Shown piece after piece: positions 1 through 25,459 of a stretch of 28,099 nt of DNA. Location: positions 1-28,099 of the IMG/VR virus record IMGVR_UViG_3300001831_000164; one strand, written 5' to 3'. This stretch comes from a virus. The notes beneath the pieces were generated by a model. It made no database searches, was not told the origin of the DNA, and saw only the letters and a list, made by a program, of their open reading frames with translations. The stretch's first letter is position 1. The number at the start of each line of letters is the position of its first letter. The position numbers were made by a program, and so were the translations under genes.

Positions 1-3000
1 GGAAATCCAATTTATGGTCCATATGGATATACAAATGCAACTGGTGGTTCTGTAAGAAGAATGAAGTCCAGTTATGAAACACAAGTTACTGGAACCAATA
101 GACCACCAACAACAATTTACCCAGCAGGTTTCTTTGTTGAAGATTATGTCTACACTGGAACTGGTGACCTTGATGAGCACAATGGAAGATACTGCATAAC
201 TCCAGACTATCCAAATGGTGTCTATGCATACTTCACAACTATTAATTTTACAGTTGATTCATCTGGTCCATTCAAGAACTACAGAAGACCTGTCTTCCCA
301 TACCTGATTGGAGATAAGTTTAAGTCAGAACCAAATAATTTCAACTTTAGACTTCAATCAAATCAGGATCATTATGATATTGAAGCATCTGGTCTTCTGA
401 GAAATACTGCAGAATATCACACCAATGATGAGAAGAGTGGATATGACTACATCTTCAATTCTACAAAGGTACAAAAGCAAACCATTGACATTACAGCAAC
501 TTCTACTGGTTCCATTGAGCAAGTGGGAATTCTTACTGGTGGAACAAACTATAGAGTAAATGATAGTGTTTCATTCAATAATGGTTCAACAGGTGGTAGA
601 GATGCTGATGTAAAAGTCTCTAGAGTTCTAGGAAAGCAAATTAGTAGAGTAAGTACTTCTACAACGTCTTTCTATAATGTAGAGTTTATCAGAAATAATA
701 ATTCTTATCTTGGATTTACATCAGTTCCACACAACCTAGAAAATGGAGACACCATACAGATTTCTGGTATCTCCACTTTCTTCAAGGGATTCAATGGTTC
801 TTACACTACAGGAATCAGAAGCGACAATTTTGTTTTAACACTAGGAGTTGGTGACACATCTTCTACTGGTTATGTGGCATATTTCTATGTTTCTGGTGCC
901 CTTCAGTATCCATATATTCGTCCCAATGATGTACTTGGAATTGGAACTGAAAGAGTTAAGGTCTTGAATATAGATCCTATCTCTCAAAGAATTAGAGTAC
1001 TTCGTGCACAAGATGGAACTATAGGTGTTGCTCACACTAATAAGGAAATTTTACTTGAAGATTCAAGAAAGTTCAGAGTCAATATCAGTGGTCTCACTAC
1101 AACAAGATCATATGCAGTCAATGAAGAACTTTATTTTGACCCTGCAGAATCTGTGGGTGTTGGAACAGTATTGTCTACAGGTGCTGGAACAACCATCACA
1201 TTCTCAAATCCTGGTGTTGGAGCAACTCAAGTATTTGTAGAGCCAAGGTCAATTTATTATCCAAATCATGGTCTGAAACTTAATGAGACTATTTCTTACA
1301 ATACCAATGGTGGAGATTCTATTTCTGTATGGAATGGAGCAGTAGGTTCTGCCTTCACATCTTTGAATAACTTCTCTACTTTATATGCAGTACCTCTTTC
1401 TAATGACTTTATTGGTATTAGTTCTAATAAGATTGGACTGAGTAGCACTGGTTATGTTGGTGTAAACACATCACTTTCCCTCCTCTACTTCACATCAAAT
1501 GTTGGAACAGGTGATACACATAGTTTTACCACCAACAAAAATAATGTAATTTCTGGTCAGATATCTCAGAACATTGTTACTGTTTCAACTGCTACCACTC
1601 ATGGTTTAAGTGCAAATGATACAGTTTATATGACAGTTAAACCAACAGGTGAGCAGACTGTTAAAGTTAAGTATGACAAATACAACAGAAGAATTGTATT
1701 TGATCCAAGAAACTTCTCTGCAGGTGATGTAGATACAAACCTCAATACAATTGGTTTTAGTACAGAATATTTTAGTCATGGTGATAGAGTCATTTACACT
1801 TCATCATCACCATCTGGTGGTCTTGTTGATGAGGGAATGTACTATGTCATCCCATACAATGATACTAATGTTAGACTGGTAAAAGAAAAGTTTGAACTTG
1901 ATGCTGCAGAACCAAATTATGTGAACATTACTAGTGCATCTGCAGGAACACTTTCAAAAATTAATCCACTGATTAATTCAAGAAGAAATAATTCACTAGT
2001 ATTTGATCTTTCAGATTCATCATTGGCATTCTTCTACAATAGTCTGCAATATCCTGCATTTGATTTTAATGTCTATTCAGATAAGCAGTTTACTACTAAG
2101 TTCTTTACCTCTGGTCAGTCAAGTACTTTTGAAGTGACTAAGAGTGGAAGTATTGGTGTTGATACTACAGCAAAGGTTACTCTGAAGGTCAGTGATTATA
2201 TTCCACAAAACCTGTACTACAAATTTGAGCCAACAAATCTGAACATTATTCCAGATGTTCAGAGTCAAATCTCCATTGATAATACAGTACATAACTACAA
2301 TGAAATTGGTGTAGTTGCAACAGAGTATGATGGTACTCACACCATATCTGGTGTTGGAACAAATAGTTTCACATATAACATCTCAGTTGCACCAGGTGTA
2401 ACCACCTATACATCTTCAAACTCCAAGTCTTATTATGAGACAAACTCCAGAACTGCATATGGAGAAATCAGACAGTTTAAAGTCTTTGATGGTGGTTATG
2501 GATACAATTCACTTCCTGGAATTACTTCTGTAATTAGTTCTAGTGGAACTGGTGCTATTGTTCAACCAAGTAGCACTAATATTGGAAATATTCTCAATAC
2601 CAGATTTGGTAATATTGGATTTGATTATCCAACTGACAAAACAACAAGAGCAGTTGCTAATCTTCCTGAAGTTCTTAAGATGAATCTCTTGTCTTCATTT
2701 AAGAGCATTGGTATCAATTCAGGTGGTCAAAATTATCTTGTAGCTCCACAACTGGTTGTAGTTGATGGTTTTACAAATCAAGTAGTTACTGATGTTGATT
2801 TGAAGTATGAGATTGGAGACACTCAGGTTTCAATCATCAAGAATACCTCTGGGATGTATAATGTTACACCAAGAATTATTCCAACCTCAAACTCCAATGG
2901 TGTTGGCATCTCATCTCTGACATATACTTCTGGAACAAAAACAGTTAGATTGTATCTTGATACAGAATTTAGTGATGCTATTGATTTCCCATATGAAGTT

Positions 3001-6000
3001 GGTGAAAACATTCTTGTTGAAAATATTAGTGTTGGGATCAACACTACTGGAAAGGGATATAACTCTAAAGACTACAACTATTCCTTGTTCCCAGTTACTG
3101 CACTCAATAGGGCACTGGGCGGTTCTGGAGCATATGTTGAGTATAGTTTGAGTGACTATCTCAGTGGAAGTGACTATCCTGGCAACTTTGATTCTGGAAA
3201 TTCTGCAGGAAGAGCAGTTCCAGAAAAACAATTCCCAGTATTTGATCCTATTTTAGAAATTAATAACTTCTTTGATGATGAAAAGGTCAAAAATGAAGGC
3301 AATTCTGGAACAGTTGAAAGATCAAACAGATTAAATGAATATCTATTTGTAAGTACACCAAAGGAGTTTACTGTAGGAACTAAGGTCGTAGGAGAAAGCT
3401 CCAATACTCAGGGTATTATTGAGAGCAGAAACAACTTTAATGCTCAGATTATTACTGGTGCAGGAGCAACTATCTTTGATGGTTGGCAAACAAATTCTGG
3501 ATTCTTGAATGATAATTATCAAAGAATGCCAAACAATGAATATTATCAGAATCTTTCATATTCATTGAAGTCCAGAGTTCCTTTTGATACTTGGAATGAT
3601 CCAGTAAGTTCTTTAAATCACATTGCAGGTTTTGCCAAATTTGCAGATTTTGTTATTGAAAGTATTGAAGATAGACCTGAGGGTATTGCCAATCCAGAAG
3701 ACAGTTCTATTGAGACAGTTGTAGACATTACTGGTTTTGGATATCTAAACTGCTTCTCTGACTTCGATTTAGTAAGTGAAAATTCAATCAATGTTGGTGG
3801 GCAAATTATTTCAAATGAGATTCTCTTTGATAATACTATTTTGAATGACTACTTTAAGTCAGTTGGAAATAGAGTTCTCTCTATTGATGACTTTAGCAGT
3901 CTCTTCAATAGTGTTCGCAGATATGAGATATATGATACTGTTGCATCATATGAGAGCAACTATATCTACAACAAACTATTCACATTTGCAAAGAATACTG
4001 TTCTTGATGACGAAAAGCAAGCAACTATTGTAACAATTCTGCAGAAAGATGGGATTGGAAAAATTCAAGAGTATGCTGAACTTGAGAGTGGCGCTCCACT
4101 AGGTTATTATGATTACTATGCAGTAGATAATGGATTTGATTTAATATACTATCCAGTAGAGTATGAATATGACAATTACAATACTTCCACTGTTTCCTTC
4201 AACATTTTCGATAATGTTGTTGGTGTTGGTTCTACTAATATTGGAGATGTAGTTTTCATCAATAGTCACAGAACAAATGTTGCTGCTGCTACAACTACTA
4301 CTATTGTTTCAATATCTTCAACCTTTAGATCATCAAAACTTCTGGTCCAACTTGAAAACAATGAAAAAGACTTTGTTGCATCAGAACTAAGTTTGATTCA
4401 TGATGGAACAGATGTGTTCCTCTCTGAGTATGGCAGTATGGAGATGAACAATACTCCTGATTTCATTGGTTTTGGAACCTTTGATGCCTATATCAGCGGA
4501 TCAAATATTAATGTTGACTTTATACCAAATGTAGCAGTTGCTTTGACTGCAAATGCCAATGTAGTTTCAATTTCAAATACATCTGCTGTTGGTGTTTCTT
4601 CAGTAAATCTCGCTGTTTCTGATATAGTCTCATATAAAACTGACATAGCTGCTTCTGGTTCTCCAACAGCAGTTTCAATTGCATCCTTCAATTCACCAAT
4701 TGAAGCATCATATTCTATTGTCTCAGTTGAAGACATGACCAATAGTCAATATGAAATGTTTGAAATGGTTACTCTGGAATCTACTGTAAATGAAGATTCC
4801 TATGTTCAGTATGGTAATGTTTATACTGGTAGTGATAGTCTTGGCACTGTTGGATTTGATACTGCAGGTGGTGGATATCAATTAACATTTACACCAATTG
4901 CAAATGCAGAAATGCAGGTTAGAGTTTACTCTATGCAATTGTTTCTCTATGACAATAATAATGATCCTGGTCAAATTGAATTTAACAATAGCGTAATTGA
5001 TACTGAATCAGGGCAGTTTACAGGAACTCTGTCAGATTTGAAGACATCATTTGGTCTTAATCATGAAGGTCTCCCCATCTTCCAAAGATACTTTAATGGC
5101 AGTGATTCTGGAATTATTGACCTCACAAACAACTTTGTTAAAATTCCACAGCACTTCTTTGTAACTGGCGAAAAAGTATACTATAACTGGGCAGGTGCTG
5201 GAACAACTCAGGCAATTGGTATTGCAACAACTACAGTTCCTGGAATTGGTCTTACAGATAAACTTCCAAATGAATTGTATGTCGTTAAGAGTAGTGATGT
5301 AAACCTTAGGTTCGCTTCTTCTGCTCAAAATGCACTTGCAGAAATTCCAAATACACTTAAACTTACTTCTGTTGGTATTGGTACTTCTCATAGTCTTACT
5401 GCAACCAATCAGAATCCTAAAGTGATGGTTGCTATTGATAATATAATTCAATCACCAATTGTTTCCTCTGGAATCACTGCAACTCTGGATCAAAATATAA
5501 TTTTTGATACTAACTTCAGGTTGAGTGGAGTAACATCTATATTTGCACAAGATCACATTCAAATCAATAATGAGATTATGGTTGTTACTGCAGTGGGTGT
5601 TGGTGGCACTAATAACTTGACTGTCAGAAGAAGACAGATGGGTACAGGAATTGGAACCCATGCATCTGGATCATTGGTCACTAAGATTTCTGGCAACTAT
5701 AACATTGTAGAAAACACTATCCACTTTGTTACTGCACCATTTGGAAATGTTCCTATTGGTGTTGGTTCAACTACTGATCCCGATGCTTATGATTGGACTG
5801 GTATTATTACCAGTTCTACATTCCAGGGAAGAATGTTTATGAGATCTGGTATAACCGGATCCTCTGAGGAGACATATACCAAGAACTATATCTTTGATGA
5901 CATATCACGTGAATTTACTGGAATTCAAAGTAATTTTGTCCTAAGGTCTGGTGGCTCTGATGTTACTGGTATTTCTACAGATAATGCTATCATTCTTATC

Positions 6001-8280
6001 AATGGGATATTTCAAGGTCCTCAAGGTTCTCAACCAATCAATGTTCAGCAAGGTGATTATACACTAGAGGAAAGTGGAATCACAACCATTAGATTCACTG
6101 GTGGTGCAGATAACCCATATGGTTATGATCCAAACAGATCCGACTTACCTGTTGGTGGTCGTATGATCACCATTGGTTCCACAGGAGGATTTGCTTATCA
6201 ACCATTGATTTCTGCTGGTGGTACAGCAACTGTTTCAGTAGCAGGAACTATTCAAACCATTAGTATTGGAAATAGTGGTTCTGGTTATAGAGTAGGTATT
6301 CAAACAATTGTCAATGTTGGAGTTCAGACATACAGTACCGGTACTCCTAATATTGAATTCATTGGTACTGCAGCTATCAGTGGAGGAAACATTGTAAGCA
6401 TTGCAATTACAAATCCAGGATCTGGATACACCTCCACAAATCCACCTCAGGTTATTTTTGATAGTCCACTTCCATATCACAATATTCCACTGATTTACAG
6501 TTCTGAGTCAGTAGTTGGTTCTGGACAAAGTGGAACTATTGATATTGTAGTTGGACAAGGTTCCAGTGTTATTGACTTTGAAATCAGAGATTATGGATTT
6601 GATTATCAATCAGGTGATATTCTGACATTTGCTGTTGGTGGTACAACAGGAATTCCTACAGACACTACTAAAGTGTTCAATGAGTTCCAGCTTATAGTTG
6701 AAGAGTCCTTCTCAGATCAATTTAATGGTTGGTCAATTGGACAACTTCAAGTGCTTGATAATCTTGATTCTCAGTTTGATGGAACACAAACCACATTCTC
6801 CCTCAAGTTAGGAGGAGAACCCTTCTCTGCAGCAACTGAACCAGGATCAAATATTAGTTTGGAAGATGCTCTTCTGGTCTTCATCAATGATGTCATTCAG
6901 GATCCAAAGATTTCTTATGACTATAATGGTGGAAGTAAAATTAGATTTGGAACTGCACCAAAAGCAGGAGACTCTTCTAAGATTATTTTCTACAAGGGAA
7001 CAGGTGATATTGATGTTCAGTTCGTAGACATTCTTGAGTCTATTAAAGTTGGTGATACTCTCAATATTGAAAATAATCCAGCACAAGGTCAAGGTTTAGG
7101 ATTGGATCAGAATGAAAGAACTGTAATTGGAATCAATACAGTTGATAGTGTGAATACCAATCCATACTATGGACCTGGTGTTACTACAGATAGATCACTT
7201 CTGAGACCTGTAACTTGGTGTAAACAAATTGTCGATAAAGTTATCAATGGACAGAAGATTGGAAAGGATAGAATTGAATATGAACCACTGATCTATCCAT
7301 CAGCATTTGCAATCAAGGCAGTTGGAACTGGCACAGATGTTGTATATGTTGATAATCTCAGACCACTGTTCAATGGTACAAATGAGTCCTCATTTAGAGA
7401 TTTCCAAGATGCAATTACAATTAGATCACAAGATACAATTGTAGCTGCTGCAGCAACAGCTGTAGTTTCTGTTGCTGGTACAATCTCATCTCTGATCATT
7501 AATAATGCAGGAGTTGGATATACTGAGGCACCTGAAGTTACTATTGGAAACCCTGTTGGTCTTGGATCAACTCAAAGAGCAAGTGCTACATCTGCTATTA
7601 GTGGTGTAGGAACAATAACTTCTCTAACAGTCACCTCACCTGGAACTGGTTATACCAGCACCAATCCACCTGTGGTCCTTATTGAATCTCCAAAGAGTAT
7701 CATTGAGTCCATTAGTGTTACATCATATGCAGGTGACTATGGAGTAGTTGTTGGAGTTGGAACTACAGTTGTTGCTTCACAAAATCAATTCTACTTTGAT
7801 ACCTTTATCTCTTTAAATTCCTTTATGAGGAATTCTAGTTATGTTGGAACTGCTGTTACAGTAAGTGGAATTTCTACATCTGATTACCTTACAGTATTCG
7901 ACACCAATATTACAATTGGAAGCACTTTTGCATCAGAAGATCAAGATAGTGCAACAATTGGAATTGGAACAACATTCCTTGATTGTGTGTATCAGGTCAG
8001 CAGCTATGAAGACAATGATTTGTTTATTACTGCAGGTTCAACAATTGGTTTTACCACTACTTGCAGAAGAGTATTTGTTAATGTAGATACTGTTGGAAGT
8101 GGAATTGCTTACACAAGTCTTCCAGATATGGGTGAATTTAGTTGGGGCAGAATTAATCTTGGTACAAGAATTGTACCACAGAGTTTCAATGCTCACAATG
8201 ACAATGGTTACACTGGCATTTCAACTTCTGCCCTTGTAACTAGAAGTGCTTCTCTAAAATATAATAATTACACAAGTTGA
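1..8280 (+). CDS. Giant YHYH-domain virion (baseplate/fibre) protein, 5'-truncated by the window edge
   Basis: The reading frame is open from base 1, so the ATG at 61 is internal and the true start lies upstream; 2759 residues are visible. The first ~105 residues look like the C-terminal half of a YHYH-type domain: NPIYGPYGY at residues 2-10, GDLDEHNGRYC near 55-65 and FPYLIG at 99-104. The rest is a beta-rich chain of modules: 'HG(L)xxGDxV' FCCH-like segments near residues 243, 422, 537, 591 and 1717; GxGY-type repeats near 821-840, 2075-2160 and 2481-2567; two copies of a module with a hydrophobic LLVFINDVIQ-like strand near 1966-2040 and 2252-2345; and RxQ-GT-H modules near 305-345 and 1850-1895. 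Its place just upstream of the gp10-like stub and gp8 matches the T4 gp7 slot, but I see no sequence similarity to T4 gp7, so a baseplate-wedge role is inferred from position only. Arginine is written almost only as AGA and CpG is very rare. A virion structural role is likely; the exact role is unknown. Confidence 0.85.
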   Translation, partial: GNPIYGPYGYTNATGGSVRRMKSSYETQVTGTNRPPTTIYPAGFFVEDYVYTGTGDLDEHNGRYCITPDYPNGVYAYFTTINFTVDSSGPFKNYRRPVFPYLIGDKFKSEPNNFNFRLQSNQDHYDIEASGLLRNTAEYHTNDEKSGYDYIFNSTKVQKQTIDITATSTGSIEQVGILTGGTNYRVNDSVSFNNGSTGGRDADVKVSRVLGKQISRVSTSTTSFYNVEFIRNNNSYLGFTSVPHNLENGDTIQISGISTFFKGFNGSYTTGIRSDNFVLTLGVGDTSSTGYVAYFYVSGALQYPYIRPNDVLGIGTERVKVLNIDPISQRIRVLRAQDGTIGVAHTNKEILLEDSRKFRVNISGLTTTRSYAVNEELYFDPAESVGVGTVLSTGAGTTITFSNPGVGATQVFVEPRSIYYPNHGLKLNETISYNTNGGDSISVWNGAVGSAFTSLNNFSTLYAVPLSNDFIGISSNKIGLSSTGYVGVNTSLSLLYFTSNVGTGDTHSFTTNKNNVISGQISQNIVTVSTATTHGLSANDTVYMTVKPTGEQTVKVKYDKYNRRIVFDPRNFSAGDVDTNLNTIGFSTEYFSHGDRVIYTSSSPSGGLVDEGMYYVIPYNDTNVRLVKEKFELDAAEPNYVNITSASAGTLSKINPLINSRRNNSLVFDLSDSSLAFFYNSLQYPAFDFNVYSDKQFTTKFFTSGQSSTFEVTKSGSIGVDTTAKVTLKVSDYIPQNLYYKFEPTNLNIIPDVQSQISIDNTVHNYNEIGVVATEYDGTHTISGVGTNSFTYNISVAPGVTTYTSSNSKSYYETNSRTAYGEIRQFKVFDGGYGYNSLPGITSVISSSGTGAIVQPSSTNIGNILNTRFGNIGFDYPTDKTTRAVANLPEVLKMNLLSSFKSIGINSGGQNYLVAPQLVVVDGFTNQVVTDVDLKYEIGDTQVSIIKNTSGMYNVTPRIIPTSNSNGVGISSLTYTSGTKTVRLYLDTEFSDAIDFPYEVGENILVENISVGINTTGKGYNSKDYNYSLFPVTALNRALGGSGAYVEYSLSDYLSGSDYPGNFDSGNSAGRAVPEKQFPVFDPILEINNFFDDEKVKNEGNSGTVERSNRLNEYLFVSTPKEFTVGTKVVGESSNTQGIIESRNNFNAQIITGAGATIFDGWQTNSGFLNDNYQRMPNNEYYQNLSYSLKSRVPFDTWNDPVSSLNHIAGFAKFADFVIESIEDRPEGIANPEDSSIETVVDITGFGYLNCFSDFDLVSENSINVGGQIISNEILFDNTILNDYFKSVGNRVLSIDDFSSLFNSVRRYEIYDTVASYESNYIYNKLFTFAKNTVLDDEKQATIVTILQKDGIGKIQEYAELESGAPLGYYDYYAVDNGFDLIYYPVEYEYDNYNTSTVSFNIFDNVVGVGSTNIGDVVFINSHRTNVAAATTTTIVSISSTFRSSKLLVQLENNEKDFVASELSLIHDGTDVFLSEYGSMEMNNTPDFIGFGTFDAYISGSNINVDFIPNVAVALTANANVVSISNTSAVGVSSVNLAVSDIVSYKTDIAASGSPTAVSIASFNSPIEASYSIVSVEDMTNSQYEMFEMVTLESTVNEDSYVQYGNVYTGSDSLGTVGFDTAGGGYQLTFTPIANAEMQVRVYSMQLFLYDNNNDPGQIEFNNSVIDTESGQFTGTLSDLKTSFGLNHEGLPIFQRYFNGSDSGIIDLTNNFVKIPQHFFVTGEKVYYNWAGAGTTQAIGIATTTVPGIGLTDKLPNELYVVKSSDVNLRFASSAQNALAEIPNTLKLTSVGIGTSHSLTATNQNPKVMVAIDNIIQSPIVSSGITATLDQNIIFDTNFRLSGVTSIFAQDHIQINNEIMVVTAVGVGGTNNLTVRRRQMGTGIGTHASGSLVTKISGNYNIVENTIHFVTAPFGNVPIGVGSTTDPDAYDWTGIITSSTFQGRMFMRSGITGSSEETYTKNYIFDDISREFTGIQSNFVLRSGGSDVTGISTDNAIILINGIFQGPQGSQPINVQQGDYTLEESGITTIRFTGGADNPYGYDPNRSDLPVGGRMITIGSTGGFAYQPLISAGGTATVSVAGTIQTISIGNSGSGYRVGIQTIVNVGVQTYSTGTPNIEFIGTAAISGGNIVSIAITNPGSGYTSTNPPQVIFDSPLPYHNIPLIYSSESVVGSGQSGTIDIVVGQGSSVIDFEIRDYGFDYQSGDILTFAVGGTTGIPTDTTKVFNEFQLIVEESFSDQFNGWSIGQLQVLDNLDSQFDGTQTTFSLKLGGEPFSAATEPGSNISLEDALLVFINDVIQDPKISYDYNGGSKIRFGTAPKAGDSSKIIFYKGTGDIDVQFVDILESIKVGDTLNIENNPAQGQGLGLDQNERTVIGINTVDSVNTNPYYGPGVTTDRSLLRPVTWCKQIVDKVINGQKIGKDRIEYEPLIYPSAFAIKAVGTGTDVVYVDNLRPLFNGTNESSFRDFQDAITIRSQDTIVAAAATAVVSVAGTISSLIINNAGVGYTEAPEVTIGNPVGLGSTQRASATSAISGVGTITSLTVTSPGTGYTSTNPPVVLIESPKSIIESISVTSYAGDYGVVVGVGTTVVASQNQFYFDTFISLNSFMRNSSYVGTAVTVSGISTSDYLTVFDTNITIGSTFASEDQDSATIGIGTTFLDCVYQVSSYEDNDLFITAGSTIGFTTTCRRVFVNVDTVGSGIAYTSLPDMGEFSWGRINLGTRIVPQSFNAHNDNGYTGISTSALVTRSASLKYNNYTS

Positions 8281-8282
8281 TT

Positions 8283-8290
8283 ACTAAATA
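8283..8290 (+). promoter_or_regulatory. Possible T4-type late promoter, variant
   Basis: ACTAAATA lies 20 bases before the ATG at 8311, just after the stop codon of the giant gene. It differs from the T4 late consensus TATAAATA at two positions, so it is weaker support than the other sites in the window. Confidence 0.35.
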
Positions 8291-8302
8291 CTAAAAAGTA
8301 TT
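8287..8302 (+). other. Short hairpin in the leader of the gp9/gp10-like gene
   Basis: AATACT, four A residues and AGTATT form a perfect 6-bp stem with a 4-base loop, between the giant gene and the next ATG at 8311. No T-tract follows it, so a terminator role is not supported. It may be a leader structure or may have arisen by chance in AT-rich DNA. Confidence 0.4.
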
Positions 8303-8310
8303 GATAGGAA

Positions 8311-8673
8311 ATGGCGAAACAAGGTATTAGTACAGGCACTACGCCTAATGACGGTACTGGTGATTCCCTGTTTACTGGGGCAGAAAAAATCAATGACAAT
8401 TTTAATGAACTCTATGCTGTAGTTGGTAATGGTACTACAACTTTTGTTGGTATTGTTTCGCAAATCACTGCAGGTAACAATGTAAGCATTTCAACTGCTT
8501 ATGGTTCTGTTGATGTTGGTGTTTCAACCAACATCAATACAACTGGTATTATTACTGCTACAGGTGGATTTGTGAGTACAGCAAATACAACTCCTATTCA
8601 GATCACACTTTCGGGGAGTACATTAACCTTCACTGCAAGTGGAATTGGATCAACTAGCTTTACATTATCCTAA
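8311..8673 (+). CDS. Small virion protein with a gp9/gp10-type N-terminal motif
   Basis: This 120-residue protein starts with a stretch (residues 7-37) carrying the motif DGTGDSLFTGAEKINDNFNE followed by LY. The N termini of T4 gp10 (DDGTGDYL..GG.KINENFDELY) and gp9 carry the same motif, where it helps attach fibre-type proteins to the baseplate. Everything that follows gp10's first ~35 residues is missing: the remainder is a short beta-rich tail with the tag TGIITATGGF near residues 77-86, which recurs in two distal fibre genes. It sits 30 bases after the giant gene and 25 bases before gp8. The start has only a poorly placed AGGA (8306-8309), one base before the ATG. It is probably a connector or adaptor at the baseplate edge; the assignment to gp9 or gp10 specifically is unsafe. 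Confidence 0.75.
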   Translation: MAKQGISTGTTPNDGTGDSLFTGAEKINDNFNELYAVVGNGTTTFVGIVSQITAGNNVSISTAYGSVDVGVSTNINTTGIITATGGFVSTANTTPIQITLSGSTLTFTASGIGSTSFTLS

Positions 8674-8679
8674 TAAATA
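8672..8679 (+). promoter_or_regulatory. T4-type late promoter before gp8
   Basis: AATAAATA, one mismatch from the T4 late consensus TATAAATA, overlaps the TAA stop (8671-8673) of the preceding gene and lies 19 bases before the gp8 ATG. The T4 late element is read by the gp55 sigma factor with sliding clamp gp45 and co-activator gp33. No further late-type element is seen before 17946, so this promoter may also serve the 2484-residue gene. Confidence 0.55.
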
Positions 8680-8698
8680 AAGAAAATTCTGTATACAA

Positions 8699-10258
8699 AT
8701 GGCAGCGATAATTACTGACCAACTTCGTATTTTGAATGCAAAGAATTTTGTTGCTGGAGTTCAATCTAGTTCAAATTCTTATTATACATTTATTAGCATT
8801 CCTAATTCTAACGATTATCAATCTGATTGGGACACAAATCCCCCCTCTCCCATTGATAATTTTGAGCAAGACAATAATGTCTATTGGGATGGAATGTTGG
8901 CCCTGAAAAAGATTGCGCCAAGTGATGTAAGTCAGGTTGTTAGAAAAACAACTTGGACTTCAGGTGTAACATATGATATGTGGAGGAATGATATTAGTAG
9001 AGATAACCCATCGCAACCATCTGGTGTTTTTGATATCTATGCTGCAAATTTTTATGTAATGAACTCTGACTACAGAGTTTATGCTTGCCTTTTTAATAAT
9101 GCAAATCCTGAAAATAATTATCAAGGTGGACCTTCACTAGATGAACCAACATTTACTGATCTAGAACCAAGAGCTGCTGGTTCTAGTGGTGATGGATATA
9201 TTTGGAAGTATCTCTACACAATTAGTCCATCACAAGCAATTAAGTTTGATTCAATAAACTATATTCCCATTCCAACCAATTGGTACACCAATAGTACATA
9301 TGCACCTGTTAGAAATAATGCAGCAGCAAGTGGACAGATAAAAGTTGTAACTATTAGAGAAAGAGGAGTTGCTATTGGAGATGCAAATAAAACATATACC
9401 AGAGTACCTATTTTAGGTGATGGTGAAGGTGCAGAAGCAACTATTGTAATTAATAATGATTCCCAAGTAGAGAGTGTTACAGTATCAAAGGGTGGTTCTG
9501 GTTATACTTTTGGAACTGTTGATTTAGAAGCTGGTGGTGTTCCTGCTGGTACAACTGCTCCAGTCTTTAATGTAATCATCCCACCTCCTGGTGGACATGG
9601 TGCTGATATTTACAGGGAGTTGGGTGCATATAATGTTCTGACTTATTCTAGATTTGAGAATGATACTGAAAATCCAGATTTTGTTACTGGTAACCAGTTT
9701 TCTGCTGTAGGATTAGTAGAAAATCCAAAATCATATGGATCCGCAACAAACCTAACATTAGATAAAGCAAGTGCACTTTATGCACTTAAATTGACTGGAA
9801 CAGGTTATAGTTCTGCCACATTTGTAGCAGACTCTGAAATCACACAAACTGTTGGTGTTGGTTCTACTGCTGTTGGTAGAGTTGCATCATATGACCAACT
9901 GACTGGAGTATTGAAGTATTGGCAAGATTACTCTCTTGCAGGATTTAATACTAATGGCACAGCAAATACTGATCCAGAATATGGTTTCCATCTGAACAGA
10001 TTTACTGCAGATATTAACTCTGGAGGAAGTTTCACTATAATTGGTGGAAGTGTAAATCTAGCAATTCAAACCAGTTTTCAGGGTGTGTCGACAGTAATAA
10101 ATAGTAGGACATACTATCTTGGTCAGAATTTTGTAGATGGTGTTTCTCAACCTGAGTCTGAGAAATACTCTGGAAACATCATTTATATTGACAACAGACC
10201 TTCAGTAACAAGGTCTTCCTCTCAGAAAGAAGACGTAAAAATTATCTTGCAGTTCTAA
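8699..10258 (+). CDS. 8: Baseplate wedge protein gp8
   Basis: Recognised as T4 gp8 by conserved segments. These are an N-terminal part with a YYTFISIP strand near residue 27 and a W(D)GMLALKKI region near 63-72; a GDGYIWKYLYTI segment near 164-175 (T4: GDGYVWEYLFEI); and a C terminus SGNIIYIDNRP...EDVKIILQF (T4: GEMIYMENRP...EEINILFTF). In T4, gp8 dimers sit in each baseplate wedge and bind gp10, gp7 and gp6. At 519 residues it is far longer than the 334 of T4. The extra length lies between the GDGYIW segment and the conserved C terminus and includes a GxGYT module (KGGSGYTFG near 263-271) shared with gp14 and both giants in this window. It starts ATGGC with an A-rich leader and no clear Shine-Dalgarno. 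A six-base gap separates it from the next gene, so the two are probably cotranscribed. Confidence 0.93.
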   Translation: MAAIITDQLRILNAKNFVAGVQSSSNSYYTFISIPNSNDYQSDWDTNPPSPIDNFEQDNNVYWDGMLALKKIAPSDVSQVVRKTTWTSGVTYDMWRNDISRDNPSQPSGVFDIYAANFYVMNSDYRVYACLFNNANPENNYQGGPSLDEPTFTDLEPRAAGSSGDGYIWKYLYTISPSQAIKFDSINYIPIPTNWYTNSTYAPVRNNAAASGQIKVVTIRERGVAIGDANKTYTRVPILGDGEGAEATIVINNDSQVESVTVSKGGSGYTFGTVDLEAGGVPAGTTAPVFNVIIPPPGGHGADIYRELGAYNVLTYSRFENDTENPDFVTGNQFSAVGLVENPKSYGSATNLTLDKASALYALKLTGTGYSSATFVADSEITQTVGVGSTAVGRVASYDQLTGVLKYWQDYSLAGFNTNGTANTDPEYGFHLNRFTADINSGGSFTIIGGSVNLAIQTSFQGVSTVINSRTYYLGQNFVDGVSQPESEKYSGNIIYIDNRPSVTRSSSQKEDVKIILQF

Positions 10259-10264
10259 AAAATC

Positions 10265-13200
10265 ATGCCACAGGAAACTAACCTCAATGTTGCTCCTTAT
10301 TTTGATGATTTTGACCCACAGAGTAACTATTATAAGGTCTTATTTAAACCTGGATACCCTGTTCAGGCAAGAGAACTAACTACTCTACAGTCAATTCTTC
10401 AAAATCAGGTTGAGGATGTAGGAAATCACCTCTTTAAAGAGGGTGCACAAGTCATTCCTGGTGGTGTAACATATCTAAATCCCTTCTATGCCATTCAAAT
10501 TGAGTCAGAATTCTTAGGAATTCCTGTTTCAGTTTATCTCGACCAACTTGTTGGCAAGACAATTACAGGTGAAACCTCTGGAATTACTGCAAAAGTAGTC
10601 ACATATATTACTGATAGGACATCTGAGAGGGGAAATTATACACTTTATGTTGATTATTTTGAATCAAGCAGCACAGATTTGGCAACTGAGCAGTTTTTGG
10701 ATAATGAAGTCCTTTTAACTGATGAAAATATTTCTTTTAGCACCACTTTTATCAGTGCTGGAGAAGGATTTTCAAGAACAATTTCAACAAATGCTGCTGC
10801 AACTGCTTCCGCCTTTGCAATTAATGACGGCGTTTACTTTTTGAGGGGTTATTTTGTTGATGTTGCCTCTCAATTACTCATTTTGGATCAATATGGAGAC
10901 ACTCCAAGCTATAGAATTGGTCTAAATGTTGTAGAATCCATCATTTCTTCAGATCTTGACTCCTCTCTGAATGATAATGCTCAAGGATACAACAATTTTG
11001 CTGCTCCAGGAGCAGATCGACTGAAAATTGAAGCAAAATTATACAAAAAAGGCACTGATGACCTTAATGATCAGAGTTTTGTGCAACTCGCAGAGGTCAA
11101 AAATGGTATTTTAAGGGATCTTGTCAATAGAACCAACTATAACCTGCTTGGAGATGAGTTGGCAAAGAGAACTTTTGATGAATCTGGTCATTATTATGTA
11201 AAAGAGTTTGTAACCACTGTCAGAGAGAGTCTGAATAATGGTTATGGTAACAGAGGAATCTATAATGCCAACCAAACAACTGATGGAGGTTCTACTCCCA
11301 ATAATGATTTGGCAATTTACAAGGTTTCACCAGGTAGAGCATATGTAAGAGGATATGAAGTCAATAAAATTGCTTCAACTTTCTTGGATGTGCCAAAACC
11401 AAGAACTACAAACCTAGTTGAGGGTCAATCTGTCAATTTTGGATTTGGTCCAACATTTGCAGTCAACAGAGTCTATGGTTCTGCAACTATTGGATTCAAT
11501 ACTACCAATACTTTGAGTCTCAGAGACCAAAGAGTGGGTGCAACACAAACTACAGCACCAGGAACTGAAATTGGTGTTGCTAGAATCTATGATTTTGCTC
11601 TTGAATCTGGTTCATATGATACAACTACACCAGATTTGAACAAATGGGACCTTTCTCTGTTTGATGTTCAAACATACACTGATGTAACAGTAAATGAATC
11701 AGTCACATTAAGCACTCCAACCTTCATTCAAGGTCAATCTAGTGGAGCAAGTGCATTTTTGAGATATGATGTAAGTGCTGGAACTGCTCTTACTGCATAT
11801 GATGTCAAAGGAGACTTTTTCATTGGTGAGAGACTGCTTTTCAATGGTGTAGTGACCAATGCAAGGTCTGTAACAGATTTAACAAACTATGAACTGTCTG
11901 ATATCAAGTCAGTTTATGGTATTGTTGGTGGTGGAACAACATTTACAGCAGACTTAATTCAAACTCCAGTAAGAACTATTGGAATTGCATCTATTACTCC
12001 TGTTTCAGGTGGTATTTCTACAGTTTCATCTCCAACTACCACATTTCCAGGAATTGTAACCACCGGTGGTCTTGTTCAATACTCCGTTCCAACCAACAGT
12101 GTTCCATCTTATGGAAGAGTAACAGGAGTTAATAACACTTCCTTTACTATTGAGGCAGTTACTACTGTTTCTGGATATAGAATTGGTTCTCTGCCAACAT
12201 CTGCAACAGAAGTTACTGATTTGACAGTTGTTGAGTCCAGATATCAAGGAAATACTGGAAATGGAAATGCTGCATCAAATGCTACTCTGTATAGCAGATT
12301 CCCCAAGAAAAATATCTCTTCAGTAGATCTTACTGGAGCAAGTATTATAATCAGAAAGCAGTACAACACATCTATTACTAGCAATTCAACTGCAACTCTG
12401 TCTGCAGGAGTAAATGAGGTATTTTTGCCATTTGATGAAGAAAGATATATTGTTATTAGATCTGATGGTTCAACAGAAGAACTGACTGCTGATAAATTCT
12501 CACTGACCAGTGGTTCTACTCAATTGACAATCAATGGTCTTGGTACAGATGACCCTGATACCACTGTTATTGCAACTTTGAGAAAGAGTCAAGTTACAGC
12601 AAAAACTAAGAGAAAGTTTATTGCTAATAGTCTTATTGTCAATAAGTCATCAATCTCTGCTTCTGGAACTGGTTCAACAACTCTAAATGATGGTTTGACT
12701 TATGGTGACTATGCATTTGGAACCAGAGTTCAAGACCCAATCATCTCCTTGAATGTTCCCGATGTTGTCAAGATTCATGGCATTTTTGAATCCAATGACA
12801 CTAACAATCCTGTTGCACCATCAATGATTGCTGCATCAATGGATGGTCCCACTGCAACTACAAATGATCTCATCATTGGTGAAGAAATTATAGGTTCAAT
12901 CAGTGGTGCAAGAGCAACTTATCTTGTAAGAGTCAATGACACTAACATTAGATTTACTTATAAGAATAATACAGTATTCCAAAATGGAGAGGTGATTAAT
13001 TTTGTTTCTTCTGGTGTCAATGCTGTTGCAAATAGTATCAATATTGGAAGCAAGAATATTACCTCAGATTTTACACTTTCAAATGGTCAAAGAGAATCAA
13101 TTTATGATATTTCCAGACTTATAAGAAAGGTTAATTCTTCTGCACCAACTAGAAAGATTGTTGTCTACTTTGATAATGCTTATTATGAAACTTCAGACAC

Positions 13201-16200
13201 TGGAGATATCACATTAGCGAATTCATATGCTGAATTTGACTATGGCACTGAAGTATCATCAATCAATGGGGTCAGAAACACTGATATCATTGATGGCAGA
13301 CCAAGAGTTAGTGAGTACAGTGTTGTTGCTGGTGCTAGATCTCCATTTGAATTTGATGGAAGATCATTTACAAATAGTCAGCACAGTTCAAAGAATGTTC
13401 TTGCTTCAGATGAGTCAATTACTGTTGACTATAACTACTATCTTGCAAGAGCTGATAGAGTTTACATTGATAAGAATGGAAATTTCTCAGTTAAGTACGG
13501 AACACCTGCAGATACAGCACAACTTCCAGATGAAGTTAATGGTGCACTGAATATTGCCAATATTTACCTGCCTGCATACCTCTACAATACATCTGATGCA
13601 AGAGTAGACTTTGTTGAGCACAAGAGATATCAAATGACTGATATCTCAAAACTTGAGCAGAGGATTAAGAATCTTGAGTATTATACTCAACTCAATCAAC
13701 TTGAAGCAGATACTCTCAATCTGTTTGTATCTGATGCAAATGGTTTTAATAGATTCAAGTCTGGTGTATTTGTAGATAACTTCTCAACCACTGAACCACA
13801 AGATTCAGGTGTTGGTGTTAGAAACAGTATTGATACTAGAAAGAGAGTTCTGAGACCTGCTCACTACACAACTGCAGTCAATCTTGAAATTGGTAACACA
13901 ACTATTGCTGGTATTGGAACAACCACTGCTGCAAACCAAGATTCCAGATTTGCTGATATTCTTGGAGCCAATACAAAGAGAACTGGTCAGGTTGTAACTC
14001 TTGACTACACTGAGACCCAATGGTTGGATCAACCATTTGCCACTAGAGTTGAGAATGTAACTCCTTATCTTGTCACTTTCTATAATGGTTCTATTACACT
14101 TGAACCAACTGTTGATATCTGGATCGATGTCAATAGAATGGAAGTCAGAGATGTTCTGCAGGAAGGTTCATTCAATGCCATTGCAGATGCAATGAGAGTT
14201 GAAAATATTAGTGAAGTTGATGGTCTGAGACAGGGTGTAAGTCCTGTTCTGTGGAATTCTTGGGAAACCACTGGAGTTGATGTCAATTTCAGTCTTGGAA
14301 TGAATGCAAGTGCTAATGGCACAACAGTCAATGTTGGTGTCAGTGGTAATGTTGGAGTCAACCTCAGCCAGCAAAGAACTGGAACTCAAAATACTGTAAC
14401 TGAAGTCATTGATACTGAATCTCTGGGTGACAGAGTTGTCAGCAGAAATATCATTCACTTCATGAGGTCACGTAACATTCAGTTTACTGCAACCAAACTG
14501 AAGCCATTTACTAGAGTTTACTCATTCTTTGATAATGTAGATGTCAATAACTTCTGTCTCTCTAAACTAGTAGAGATTGAAATGACCTCTGGCACATTCC
14601 AGGTTGGTGAAACTGTTCAGGGTACAATGGGAGATAATACTTCTCAAATCATTGATAGTGGAATCCCCTCAATCTCATTTAGAGTTGCATCAGCAAATCA
14701 TAAGTACGGTCCTTACAATAATCCATCTGATACCTTTGACTCTAATCCATATGATAGAGATAATTCACTTCCAGCAACTTATTCAGAGACTTCAACAGTT
14801 CTGAATATTGATACTTTCAGTCTTGCTGCTGAAGAAGCACCTCAGTTTGCAGGTTATCTGGCAACTGGAATGATTCTCAGAGGTCAGAGCAGTGGAGCAC
14901 AAGCAACAGTTACAAATGTAAGACTTGTATCTGATAGACTTGGTACTCTGATTGGTTCATACAGAGTTCCTGATGCAACCAACACTGCAAACCCAACATT
15001 TGAAACTGGTAGAACTACCTTCAGACTGACTAGCAGCCCAATCAATACACAGGTTCAAGGACAGACATCAACTTCTGCAGAAGAAATCTTCTACTCACAA
15101 GGTGACATTGATAATACTCAGGAAGTAACTCTGTCACTGAGAAATGCAAGAGTTGAAATTGATGATAGTTTTGTTGAAACAAGAACTATTGGTGATAGTG
15201 CTGGTGCAAGTGCTTCTGCATCCGTTCAGATTCCTCAACCTGCACCTCCAAGAAGAGTTGACCCACTGGCACAAACATTCCTGGTTGATGAAGAAAGTGG
15301 AATCTATGTAACCAGTCTGGATCTTTATTTCTCATCTAAGGATGATACTCAACCAGTTACAGTTCAACTTCGTGAAGTAGATCTTGGAACTCCAACTCTT
15401 AAAGTTCTTGCATATTCTGAAGTTGATATCAATCCAGATGATATCACAGTATCTGCTGATGCCACTGTTTCAACTAGAGTCAATTTTGAATCACCAGTTT
15501 ACCTTGCAGGTAACAGAGAATATGCTCTGGTTCTTCTCTCACACTCAACAGAGTATAGAGTTTGGATTTCTAGACTTGGCGAATCTGATGTAAGAACTCT
15601 TGCTACAGAAGCAGGTCAAGTTCTTGTTTCCTCTCAGAACCTACTTGGTTCACTGTTTAAGTCACAGAATGCTGCTGTCTGGACACCTAGCCAGTATGAG
15701 GATCTCAAGTTCACTCTCTATAGAGCAAACTTTGTTCCATCAGGTTCTGTACAATTCTTCAATCCAAAACTGCCAACTGATTTGGAGAGAATCACACCAA
15801 ATGGTATCACAATTACTCCAAGAAATATTAGAGTTGGTCTTGGCACAACACTGTCTGATACTGGACTTGCATTTGGTAACACTATTATTCAGCAGGGAAC
15901 TGATGCAACCGGTTCACTGGTAGGTTATGGTGGTTCTGCAACAGGAACTATGACAATTACCAATGCTGGTGTTGGATATACTCCTGCTTCAGGTTACTTT
16001 GTGTTTACTGGTGTTGCTCTTACTAGTGTCACAGGTAGTGGTTTAAATGCTACTGCAGATATTGCAATTAGTAATGGTGTTGCTATTGGTGCTACACTGA
16101 GTGATGGAGGCAAAGGATATGCCATTGGTGATGTATTGACACCAATTACAGTTGGTACTGGTGGACTTGGTTCTGGTATGAGACTTTCTGTTGCTGGTAT

Positions 16201-17719
16201 CTCTGGTAACAATGAACTGATTATTGAAGAAGTTCAGGGAAGATTTGGAACTTCAGCGGGTCAATACCTCAAGTATATTAATAGCAGTGGAGTTACAACT
16301 ACACTTAATTATAGTGCTGGTGGAAATGTTGTCCCAGAGACTCCAATTAGAATTGATTCAGATGGACTTCACCTGAAGATTTTCCAAAGAAATCATGGAA
16401 TGTATCAGAATACCAACCTTGTTACCCTGAAAGGTATTCAGTCTGATCTAACACCAACCACACTAAGTGCTGTATACAATAATGGTGCTACAGGTGATAT
16501 TTCTATTGCAAGCACATCAATCTTTGGAACATTTGAAAATGTAAGTGTTGCTACTACAAATCCTGGTTATGCTAAGATTGGAAGTGAGATTATCAAATAT
16601 ACTGGAGTTGGTGCTGGCACATTAACTGGTATCACAAGAGGAATTGACAATACTCTCATTGAAAATCATGTATCTTCTGATTTGGTTTATAAGTATGAAC
16701 TGAATGGTGTATCTCTCAGAAGAATCAATACTGAGCACAATCTGAATGAAGTAACAGTATCTAACCCAATCGCTCTTGATTCTTATCATGTTAAAGTTGA
16801 TATGTCTGATACTGACAGAGGTATTGATAGGTCTGCCTCACAAACTGCATTCCCAGAATTGCACTTTAACTCCAAAAAAACTGCTGGTGGACCAAATGCT
16901 AAAGGAACATACAACCTGCCATTTGACCTTCTGATTCCTAATATCAGAACCACAACCCCAACAGGTGTAACTCTGAGTGCTGCTGTAAGAACAGTTACAG
17001 GATCTAGTGTCAATGGAACAGAGAGTTCCTTCATTGATAAGGGATTCCAGGCAATTGCTCTCAATCAAGAGAACTACTTTGATTCAGCAAGAATGGTTGC
17101 TTCTCAGGTCAATGAGAACAATTATACTACTTCACTGCCTGGAAACAAGTCATTCACAATTAATATGAATCTTGCAACTGGTGATTCCAGATTAAGTCCT
17201 GCAATTGACTTGAATAATACTGCAGTCATCTTTACTTCAAACAGAACTAACCAACCTGTTACAAACTATGCAACCAACTTGCAAGTAAATACTGTAAGTG
17301 AAGATCCAAATAGATTCATCTATGTAACCAAGAATATTGTTCTTGAAAATCCTGCAACATCTTTGCAAGTTCTCCTTGATTCATATGTCAGCACATACAA
17401 TGATGTAAGAGTCTTTTATGCACTGAATCAAGATACAGATGTAGATGAGACTGTGTTTGTTCCATTCCCGGGCTACAACAATGTTGATCCAAATGGACAA
17501 GTAATCAATCCAGCAAACAATGACGGAACCCCTGATGTCTTTACACCAAAGACAGATCAATATCAACCAAATCCATCACTGAATCTCTTTAAAGATTATA
17601 AGTTCACTGCTGATAGATTGGCACCATTTACATCATTCCGCATTAAGATCATTGGAACCTCCGTAAATTCTGCAATTGTTCCACAATTCAGAAATCTCAG
17701 AGCAATTGCATTTGCATAA
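10265..17719 (+). CDS. Giant DUF4815-type virion protein (baseplate/tail fibre)
   Basis: The 2484-residue product opens with the pattern of DUF4815 phage structural proteins: NVAPYFDDFDP at residues 7-17, FKPGYPVQARELTTLQSILQ near 27-46 and, later, GRAYVRGYEV near 357-366. Beyond that it is a long mosaic. GE-x-G-x-SGA modules lie near residues 97, 487, 870, 1445 and 1535. A predicted coiled coil (YQMTDISKLEQRIKNLEYYT) lies near 1120-1140. GxGYT repeats lie near 1900 and 1948, an RG-DNT-H module near 2101-2145, and a conserved-looking end APFTSFRIKIIGTS before the C terminus. It directly follows gp8 and precedes gp13, the space that T4 fills with gp9, gp10, gp11, gp12 and wac, none of which is recognisable here. 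It is therefore likely a baseplate-attached fibre or spike; that role is inferred. No Shine-Dalgarno is visible. CpG is very rare (about two dozen by eye in 7.5 kb). Confidence 0.88.
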   Translation: MPQETNLNVAPYFDDFDPQSNYYKVLFKPGYPVQARELTTLQSILQNQVEDVGNHLFKEGAQVIPGGVTYLNPFYAIQIESEFLGIPVSVYLDQLVGKTITGETSGITAKVVTYITDRTSERGNYTLYVDYFESSSTDLATEQFLDNEVLLTDENISFSTTFISAGEGFSRTISTNAAATASAFAINDGVYFLRGYFVDVASQLLILDQYGDTPSYRIGLNVVESIISSDLDSSLNDNAQGYNNFAAPGADRLKIEAKLYKKGTDDLNDQSFVQLAEVKNGILRDLVNRTNYNLLGDELAKRTFDESGHYYVKEFVTTVRESLNNGYGNRGIYNANQTTDGGSTPNNDLAIYKVSPGRAYVRGYEVNKIASTFLDVPKPRTTNLVEGQSVNFGFGPTFAVNRVYGSATIGFNTTNTLSLRDQRVGATQTTAPGTEIGVARIYDFALESGSYDTTTPDLNKWDLSLFDVQTYTDVTVNESVTLSTPTFIQGQSSGASAFLRYDVSAGTALTAYDVKGDFFIGERLLFNGVVTNARSVTDLTNYELSDIKSVYGIVGGGTTFTADLIQTPVRTIGIASITPVSGGISTVSSPTTTFPGIVTTGGLVQYSVPTNSVPSYGRVTGVNNTSFTIEAVTTVSGYRIGSLPTSATEVTDLTVVESRYQGNTGNGNAASNATLYSRFPKKNISSVDLTGASIIIRKQYNTSITSNSTATLSAGVNEVFLPFDEERYIVIRSDGSTEELTADKFSLTSGSTQLTINGLGTDDPDTTVIATLRKSQVTAKTKRKFIANSLIVNKSSISASGTGSTTLNDGLTYGDYAFGTRVQDPIISLNVPDVVKIHGIFESNDTNNPVAPSMIAASMDGPTATTNDLIIGEEIIGSISGARATYLVRVNDTNIRFTYKNNTVFQNGEVINFVSSGVNAVANSINIGSKNITSDFTLSNGQRESIYDISRLIRKVNSSAPTRKIVVYFDNAYYETSDTGDITLANSYAEFDYGTEVSSINGVRNTDIIDGRPRVSEYSVVAGARSPFEFDGRSFTNSQHSSKNVLASDESITVDYNYYLARADRVYIDKNGNFSVKYGTPADTAQLPDEVNGALNIANIYLPAYLYNTSDARVDFVEHKRYQMTDISKLEQRIKNLEYYTQLNQLEADTLNLFVSDANGFNRFKSGVFVDNFSTTEPQDSGVGVRNSIDTRKRVLRPAHYTTAVNLEIGNTTIAGIGTTTAANQDSRFADILGANTKRTGQVVTLDYTETQWLDQPFATRVENVTPYLVTFYNGSITLEPTVDIWIDVNRMEVRDVLQEGSFNAIADAMRVENISEVDGLRQGVSPVLWNSWETTGVDVNFSLGMNASANGTTVNVGVSGNVGVNLSQQRTGTQNTVTEVIDTESLGDRVVSRNIIHFMRSRNIQFTATKLKPFTRVYSFFDNVDVNNFCLSKLVEIEMTSGTFQVGETVQGTMGDNTSQIIDSGIPSISFRVASANHKYGPYNNPSDTFDSNPYDRDNSLPATYSETSTVLNIDTFSLAAEEAPQFAGYLATGMILRGQSSGAQATVTNVRLVSDRLGTLIGSYRVPDATNTANPTFETGRTTFRLTSSPINTQVQGQTSTSAEEIFYSQGDIDNTQEVTLSLRNARVEIDDSFVETRTIGDSAGASASASVQIPQPAPPRRVDPLAQTFLVDEESGIYVTSLDLYFSSKDDTQPVTVQLREVDLGTPTLKVLAYSEVDINPDDITVSADATVSTRVNFESPVYLAGNREYALVLLSHSTEYRVWISRLGESDVRTLATEAGQVLVSSQNLLGSLFKSQNAAVWTPSQYEDLKFTLYRANFVPSGSVQFFNPKLPTDLERITPNGITITPRNIRVGLGTTLSDTGLAFGNTIIQQGTDATGSLVGYGGSATGTMTITNAGVGYTPASGYFVFTGVALTSVTGSGLNATADIAISNGVAIGATLSDGGKGYAIGDVLTPITVGTGGLGSGMRLSVAGISGNNELIIEEVQGRFGTSAGQYLKYINSSGVTTTLNYSAGGNVVPETPIRIDSDGLHLKIFQRNHGMYQNTNLVTLKGIQSDLTPTTLSAVYNNGATGDISIASTSIFGTFENVSVATTNPGYAKIGSEIIKYTGVGAGTLTGITRGIDNTLIENHVSSDLVYKYELNGVSLRRINTEHNLNEVTVSNPIALDSYHVKVDMSDTDRGIDRSASQTAFPELHFNSKKTAGGPNAKGTYNLPFDLLIPNIRTTTPTGVTLSAAVRTVTGSSVNGTESSFIDKGFQAIALNQENYFDSARMVASQVNENNYTTSLPGNKSFTINMNLATGDSRLSPAIDLNNTAVIFTSNRTNQPVTNYATNLQVNTVSEDPNRFIYVTKNIVLENPATSLQVLLDSYVSTYNDVRVFYALNQDTDVDETVFVPFPGYNNVDPNGQVINPANNDGTPDVFTPKTDQYQPNPSLNLFKDYKFTADRLAPFTSFRIKIIGTSVNSAIVPQFRNLRAIAFA

Positions 17720-25458: not shown

Positions 25459-25459
25459 A

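Follow-up and report, generated by a model that had tools for sequence, protein, structure and literature searches.

A giant gp7-type baseplate wedge protein with a putative split core in a T4-like marine phage

The gp7 core of the giant protein

We analysed a 28,099-nt stretch of viral DNA (IMG/VR record IMGVR_UViG_3300001831_000164; the whole stretch is called the window below), the 5′ part of which (1..8280, + strand) is occupied by the gene of a very large protein containing a YHYH domain, hereafter the giant. Profile comparison identifies the giant as gp7, a protein of the baseplate wedge, from a marine phage that is T4-like and most likely a cyanophage, and two separate segments, one within its N-terminal residues 1-240 (block 1) and one at residues 2401-2475 (block 2), are identified as the parts of a gp7 core. 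We hold the gp7 identity and the split-core anatomy with high confidence, and we regard as probable the explanation as a whole, in which the large insertion that splits the core acts as a peripheral arm of the wedge. The protein is not new because its family, phrog_2885 ('baseplate wedge subunit', matched with 2309 bits), is already known and annotated as baseplate wedge initiator or gp7. A tblastn search with the giant found 464 phage records, 457 of them filed as Synechococcus, Cyanophage or Prochlorococcus; many of the 60 listed matches are named 'baseplate wedge initiator', and the best 15 listed show 37-48% identity (S-B05, 48% over 100% of the length). What the analysis adds is the two-block split-core anatomy, which answers a claim that gp7 is missing from such phages; we found no description of this anatomy, or of its answer to that claim, in the open-access literature.

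The open reading frame (ORF) in the window is open at its 5′ end and has a single terminal stop. Its 2759 amino acids (aa) are 2.7 times the length of T4 gp7 (1032 aa), which confirms the figure of more than two and a half times in a preliminary description of this DNA. A nucleotide search of the phage collection with the window gave no match. Two metagenomic contigs are nearly identical to it: L004 (15,010 bp; 99.75% identity across 8717 bp) and L005 (99.5% across 1294 bp). L004 holds the complete gene (2547..14573, 4008 aa, 3.9 times T4 gp7) and supplies the N terminus that lies upstream of the window, and with it block 1. The window thus carries the C-terminal two thirds of the protein, and residues are numbered below on the full-length protein, in which window residue n is n+1249 and window residue 1 is 1250. 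On L004 the gene order is a 133-aa ORF (91..492, assigned to gp25 by position only, without profile comparison), gp6 (493..2532), the giant and a 120-aa ORF (14604..14966). The giant sits between gp6, on L004, and the 120-aa ORF followed by gp8, in the window, which is the gp7 slot. The earlier statement that it lies next to gp8 holds for the wedge cluster as a whole; strictly, the small ORF intervenes.

For block 1, a profile of 58 distinct giant N-termini (650 aa) was compared with a T4-type gp7 profile by hhalign. A single match was obtained, giant residues 189-222 aligned to T4 gp7 725-758 (probability 95, E 3.2e-8). Against T4 gp6, gp8, gp9, gp10, gp11 and gp12 the probability was at most 1.4 (the gp11 and gp12 profiles being one sequence each), and the positive controls, gp6 and gp8 of the giants' loci against their T4 counterparts, gave E 1.7e-45 and 2e-10. 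A hidden Markov model (HMM) of block 1 matched at least 22 of 26 T4 gp7s, with no decoy or reversed sequence among the matches listed. T4 gp7 itself matches phrog_2885 (1.3e-4) and phrog_26741 (1.7e-5), and the gp7 of Sinorhizobium phage phiM12 bridges the two families, matching phrog_964 (T4 gp7) at 8.9e-7 and phrog_2885 at 1.8e-21. The Pfam family PF23786 (Baseplate_wedge) passes its cut-off in the relatives S-SM2 (28.9) and S-SM1 (39.8).

Block 2 lies in the window (3454..3678, + strand) and was located by profile searches; it has the motif YYQ..SY.(I/L)KS......W...V....H.AGF and appears homologous to T4 gp7 861-892. A profile of giant residues 2330-2490 finds compact gp7s when these are searched as whole proteins (Melnitz 1.8e-23, HTVC008M 9.9e-21, phiM12 4.4e-16, OC 5.8e-16) and also matches P-SSM2 and S-SM1. 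The iterated block 2 profile reached all 26 T4 gp7s at about 861-892 (E 4e-5 to 0.024), and a compact-gp7 profile aligned with T4 gp7 645-892 over 240 columns, with both blocks in order (E 3.7e-7, probability 93).

Several observations weigh against this assignment. On L004 residues 1-300 PF23786 scores 21.6 bits against a cut-off of 27, and it has no match in the block 2 piece of the window. In the first block 2 HMM search the best T4 gp7 (0.033) ranked behind a gp9 decoy (0.028), and giant block 2 against T4 alone gave an hhalign probability of 1.4%. Even after iteration 3 of the 26 T4 gp7s scored worse than the best decoy (0.013), and the hhalign match to T4 stayed weak (E 2.7e-4, probability 42). 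The link of block 2 to T4 rests on the intermediate compact gp7s. Moreover, the AlphaFold2 model of the compact HTVC008M gp7 has a predicted local distance difference test (pLDDT) score of only 37.5, and a shared fold is thus putative. The HHpred-type comparison with T4 gp7 that had been proposed as a check is clear for block 1 and weak for block 2 when T4 is matched directly.

The stretch between the blocks in T4 gp7 corresponds to Pfam domain V (766-861). In the giant an insert of ~2160 aa, made of beta modules and the YHYH domain, stands there, and ~1530 residues more follow block 2. The gap between the blocks is 78 aa in OC, 103 in T4, 370 in Melnitz, 502 in HTVC008M, 785 in phiM12 and 1071 in S-CRM01. 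It reaches 1573 aa in Syn1, 2136 in S-CAM7, 2142 in S-T4, 2161 in the window virus, 2196 in S-SM2, 2211 in P-SSM2, 2337 in P-HM2, 2693 in S-SM1 and 2697 in S-RIM2. All nine YHYH-bearing gp7s surveyed have the order block 1, YHYH, block 2 and a gap of at least 1573 aa, and the YHYH profile found no match in the six gp7s with smaller gaps (T4, OC, Melnitz, phiM12, HTVC008M and S-CRM01). The same order was found in 50 of 50 giants longer than 2600 aa (49 metagenomic, some near-duplicates, and S-SM2), a count that is partly circular. The giants counted throughout are 63 metagenomic loci plus S-SM2, with several near-duplicates, and most of them are inside the profiles, which makes such counts partly circular. 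No profile contains T4, Syn1, S-RIM2, P-HM2, S-T4, S-CAM7, S-CRM01 or S-CREM2; the iterated block 2 profile includes phiM12, OC, Melnitz, HTVC008M, S-SM1 and P-SSM2, none of which entered the N-terminal, block 1 or YHYH profile. One locus with its gene in two frames (L055) was excluded from the profiles; its long frame has block 2 and YHYH, without block 1. S-PM2 is outside the survey, the stretch examined being one without its wedge genes. In the 1937-aa protein of S-CREM2, block 1 is at 148-236, YHYH at 763-922 and block 2 at 1861-1925. In S-SM1 and S-RIM2 a further ~500 aa stand between the N-terminal helices and block 1.

A separate gp7 homologue elsewhere in the genome would speak against the giant being gp7; in the relative S-SM2 the gp7 N-terminal query found one place only. 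Some records show two such places, and the two of S-SM1 belong to one gene with an insertion. P-HM2 has a second gene annotated as gp7, PHM2_094 (L213 28551-33001), whose first 1483 aa gave no match to the block 1, block 2 or YHYH profiles. A gp7 N-terminus is also carried by open frames of 7292, 7352 and 7476 aa on contigs that are filed under archaea or bacteria. These frames, the longest seen, come from Euryarchaeota TMED129 (7292 aa), from contig C10 of the assembly of a cultured flavobacterium, Nonlabens xiamenensis 1Q3 (7352 aa, together with a gp8 match), and from Flavobacteriales TMED113 (7476 aa) (loci L152, L199 and L162). Contig C10 is probably a phage contig inside the assembly. 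A 1000-residue frame from another locus (L209) is 100% identical across 971 residues to a viral metagenome contig.

A different account of the gp7 slot appears in a 2020 comparative study (PMC7029224), which states that cyano- and pelagimyophages are without T4 gp7 and that it is 'substituted' by VrlC. The giant would then be an unrelated structural or fibre protein in the place of gp7, with VrlC doing the work of gp7. A VrlC-type protein is indeed present in the window (10265..17719, + strand; 2484 aa, phrog_358), in the same position as the VrlC gene of S-SM2, and simple searches see little in the giant, where YHYH is the only Pfam domain above threshold. Profile comparison, in contrast, finds the gp7 core in the giant and none in VrlC: a profile of 3 VrlC sequences against T4 gp7 gave a probability of 0.2. 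VrlC was rejected as a gp7 equivalent on this value and is treated as distinct from gp7; phrog_358 is not listed among the matches of the giant. Furthermore, VrlC is no substitute in HTVC008M and phiM12 because in these phages a gene annotated VrlC or VrlC-like stands beside a clear gp7. A non-homologous giant is largely refuted at the level of sequence by the block 1 match, and we consider the substitution account highly improbable.

The preliminary description had offered three options for the giant: a replaced wedge component, a massively expanded one, or a fibre attached to it. Expansion is supported by both core blocks, in order, in the gp7 slot. Replacement is not supported because the giant is homologous to gp7. 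A separate fibre protein is not supported either because the core lies in the same chain and Pfam, in which only YHYH is above cut-off in the full 4008-aa protein, gives no gp9/gp10-type attachment domain.

The YHYH domain and the modules of the insertion

The window begins within the YHYH domain, the C-terminal part of which occupies 1..288 (+ strand; window aa 1-96) inside the insertion between the core blocks (E 2.6e-47 with a family profile, a partly circular value because L004 is in that profile). Pfam YHYH (PF14240) matches window aa 1-85 with profile positions 103-186 of 193 (E 1.4e-18, 68 bits against a cut-off of 25), and on L004 the full-length domain spans residues 1223-1334 (95.7 bits, same cut-off). 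A YHYH domain at the visible 5′ end, as first described, is therefore correct for the window; in the full protein the domain is in mid-chain and is cut by the window edge, because window residue 1 is residue 1250.

A 2021 paper (PMC7824862) describes YHYH domains of jumbo phages with a predicted Zn site formed by a His triad and an Asp, from which a hydrolase was guessed. On this prediction the domain of the giant could act at the tail as a Zn-dependent hydrolase and open the envelope of the host. All 48 aligned giants keep H1240 (of HSP), D1249, D1297 and D1307, and 41 of the 48 keep H1198, beside the position of the lost namesake motif. The conservation of H1198, H1240 and D1249 counts against a non-catalytic reading of the domain and makes a rearranged metal site possible. 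We aligned 34 of 53 genome-collection loci with six phage domains. The HSP, DG.PIYGP and LD..NGR cores are kept almost everywhere. The namesake YHYH motif, with an A/G-H histidine upstream, is confined to 12 of the 34 loci, all with frames of at most 680 aa; the longest frames among the 34 probably lie on phage contigs (a gp7 N-terminus is present in 7 of 8 genomes tested). In place of the namesake motif the phage domain shows Y-(mostly S/A/T)-H-(mostly L/V). His fills the two namesake His positions in 0 of the 28 phage-domain rows (of 29) with letters there, and the motif is found in 0 of 64 giants. The upstream histidine is missing in the six phage rows of the alignment. Judged by alignment only, the His triad plus Asp of the predicted hydrolase was not found. 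The AlphaFold2 model of the region is poor (pLDDT about 43-74) and likewise lends the enzyme no support. A catalytic role is unlikely because the metal site, judged from the aligned residues, looks altered in phage gp7; we regard an envelope-opening hydrolase as improbable, and a part in binding or structure is more likely for the domain than enzymatic activity.

The remainder of the insertion and of the C-terminal extension was described earlier as many small beta modules, which is right as far as tested. AlphaFold2 modelled residues 1141-2340 as nearly all beta (mean pLDDT 76.9); most 10-residue blocks reach at least 80 from model residue 281 on, whereas confidence is low in the part before model residue 270, where YHYH lies, and again at 980-1002. 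Foldseek of this 1200-aa model against the PDB gave 0 matches at E <= 0.001, with unrelated viral spikes and capsids among the top ranks, and a PDB sequence search gave no match for the window protein, the 1200-aa insert profile or the YHYH profile. Against BFVD the best match was the Bellamy baseplate wedge initiator, and the named proteins among the 50 listed were mostly cyanophage structural proteins. By structure comparison, only one part of the model is clearly above the Z background, a beta-barrel module of ~84 aa (817..1068, + strand; window aa 273-356, model residues 382-465). It resembles 8rk3_b (Z 12.8, root-mean-square deviation (rmsd) 1.5 over 79), 9in6_M (Z 11.0, rmsd 1.8 over 75) and 8vjh_A (Z 10.0, rmsd 2.1 over 75), and the solved structures nearest to it in fold are small barrels from the baseplate, capsid and tail-tip proteins of phages. 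F1-ATPase barrels (Z 7-7.7) were taken as a common arrangement. Several Pfam matches below cut-off (NPCBM, E1_FCCH, DUF1672, Laminin_G_2, bCoV_S1_RBD and a few others) were ignored.

Internal repeats were assigned to families by profile self-search, in which the number of reversed-sequence matches at E<1e-3 was 0; all lie on the + strand. Family beta (1654..1953, residues 1801-1900) matches residues 806-895 (4e-12), 927-1008 (1e-9) and 2954-3044 (2e-6), the last being a further copy at 5113..5385. Family alpha, of G-x-G-Y type (2374..2673, residues 2041-2140), matches residues 717-783 (2e-5), HTVC008M gp7 488-558 (2e-12) and gp14 of the window (9e-4). About three copies of family gamma follow block 2 (3934..4962, residues ~2561-2660, 2710-2776 and 2809-2903) and match one another at 1e-5 to 1e-8. 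A module in common with residues 242-313 of window gp15 lies at 5374..5793 (2e-8, 5e-7). Another alpha copy (6214..6513, residues 3321-3420), in the best conserved stretch of the giant, matches residues 3732-3816 (8e-14), and the alpha copies at 7294..7833 (residues 3681-3860) are shared with gp14 (254-329, 1e-11) and gp8 (211-270, 1e-5). The giant thus has several alpha copies, the family also occurs in the window's gp8 and gp14, and in the gp7s of HTVC008M and Melnitz it lies between the two blocks. Because gp8 (8699-10258), gp14 (18838-20340) and gp15 (20380-21381) match the same modules as the giant, these seem to be dispersed within one genome over virion proteins that are unrelated to each other. 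The HTVC008M gp7 (L112 6436-9486) is also a full-length match to phrog_3465, 'head closure Hc2', a name that is apparently a labelling error arising from the module in common with gp14.

Presence in virions of a relative, possible role and neighbouring genes

Absence of the protein from virions would have counted against a wedge role. Table 3 of PMC10665884 lists ORF122 (77594-83407) in the S-CREM2 virion proteome, with 91 unique peptides and 27.2% coverage, and profile matches identify this gene as the carrier of block 1, YHYH and block 2. A YHYH-bearing split gp7 is therefore a virion protein in this relative.

For the role of the insertion we turned to other gp7-like proteins, as described in three papers. 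Six monomeric copies of gp7 occur in T4, where one gp7 domain binds the fibre attachment protein gp9 through the N-terminal domain of the latter (PMC3004832). In AlgoCIS the gp7-like part has an exposed, lateral position and touches fibres, and it is called a hotspot for re-engineering (PMC8894135). The 242-aa gp7 orthologue of Vibrio phage XM1 uses flexible parts in tail-spike binding (PMC10457771). Because these parts contact fibres or spikes, we place the insert on the flank of the wedge as a candidate adhesin or docking arm. As in T4, one copy of the gp7 core per wedge, six per virion, would clamp two gp6 chains. From the domain V site, on the wedge's outer flank, the inserted chain would extend away from the core and surround the baseplate as a long beta arm that is monomeric. 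Such an arm may touch the host envelope, dock tail fibres, or both, and its movement on contact could help the wedge to switch and trigger sheath contraction. By analogy with these proteins, we lean slightly towards an adhesin or fibre-docking arm as the main role of the insert. Two points tell against it: both its position and its adhesin role are drawn by analogy, and the barrel matches in the PDB point to a common small fold and not to a function.

The insertion might instead be a passive spacer or armour in a genuine gp7, one that stabilises the baseplate or sets its size and binds no receptor. Receptor binding is not known for neck proteins, and the modules may be general decoration because they are common to gp8, gp14 and gp15 of the window. 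Conservation also extends over the whole length of the giants (the majority residue has a mean share of 0.43 to 0.82 per 50-aa stretch), which is not the pattern of a receptor tip that evolves fast. On the other hand, gp7 of T4 and the gp7-like parts of other machines bind fibres or spikes, and the length of the insert differs by more than 1000 residues between cyanophages. A passive role is possible, and we think it rather unlikely. More broadly, and only tentatively, the between-block stretch may be a general cargo bay of T4-like baseplates: gp7 would have acquired virion modules in this stretch and in two further places, expanding from ~600 residues to several thousand, with one chain per wedge becoming a built-in adhesin that takes over the work of the T4 pins and fibres (gp9-gp12).

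The 120-aa ORF downstream of the giant (8311..8673, + strand) has a T4 gp9/gp10-like N-terminal attachment domain by PHROG and Pfam matches and is possibly the stub of a fibre gene; tblastn found it at 17 loci including L004. At six of these loci (L021, L022, L023, L028, L036 and L052) the gp9/gp10-N domain starts a frame of 616 to 993 aa between gp7 and gp8 (that of L021 is cut), and at many others only 20-110 bases separate the two genes. The gp7-gp8 interval looks like an optional fibre slot that is reduced to a stub in the window virus. The baseplate wedge gene gp8 (8699..10258, + strand; PHROG and Pfam matches) follows, with its alpha match at about aa 209-278 by profile comparison. Further downstream, past the gene for the small terminase, lie two more ORFs (981 and 532 aa; 22513-27058) that match only PHROGs of unknown function or of structural or fibre type and are possible fibre genes.

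T4-like myoviruses are placed among the commonest marine ones by PMC3037559. We found no baseplate structure of a marine T4-like cyanophage in the open-access literature. A gp7 present as a two-block core tells which ~300 residues to fit beside gp6, and it makes a wedge arm that can be tested out of proteins annotated 'hypothetical' or 'virion structural protein'. The split core also explains wrong labels, such as the gp7 family named 'head closure', and the size series with both blocks, from 631 to more than 6000 aa, bears on how baseplates evolve host contact.

Comparison with known gp7 and YHYH proteins

The closest known systems are the cyanophage gp7s of phrog_2885 (S-SM2, 4156 aa; S-B05; Bellamy; P-TIM68), which are homologous to the giant across the whole window part. 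S-SM2 gp7 occupies the same slot, has YHYH at the same place and has a split core, and differs in that its locus is without the gp9/10-N stub that precedes gp8 in the window virus. S-CREM2 gp122 shows the same succession of block 1, YHYH and block 2; it is half as long and has almost no tail past block 2. The compact gp7s, which are those of Ochrobactrum phage vB_OspM_OC (OC, 631 aa), Melnitz (896 aa), phiM12 (1007 aa), HTVC008M (1016 aa) and S-CRM01 (1454 aa), contain both blocks, and HTVC008M and Melnitz also have alpha matches between them; they differ from the giant in their smaller gaps (78-1071 against 2161 aa) and in giving no YHYH match. T4 gp7 (Pfam Gp7_helical, Gp7_5th) shares core blocks 1 and 2 and the gene order. 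Its N-terminal ~640 aa were not detected (no phrog_964 match is listed for the window protein or S-SM2 gp7), and in the place of its domain V the giant has the ~2160-aa insert, in addition to the long C-terminal extension. Finally, the short bacterial YHYH proteins of PF14240 share the HSP(I/L)xG....DG.PIYGP and LD..NGR cores with the phage domain, while the namesake YHYH motif and the upstream His are absent from the domain of phage gp7.

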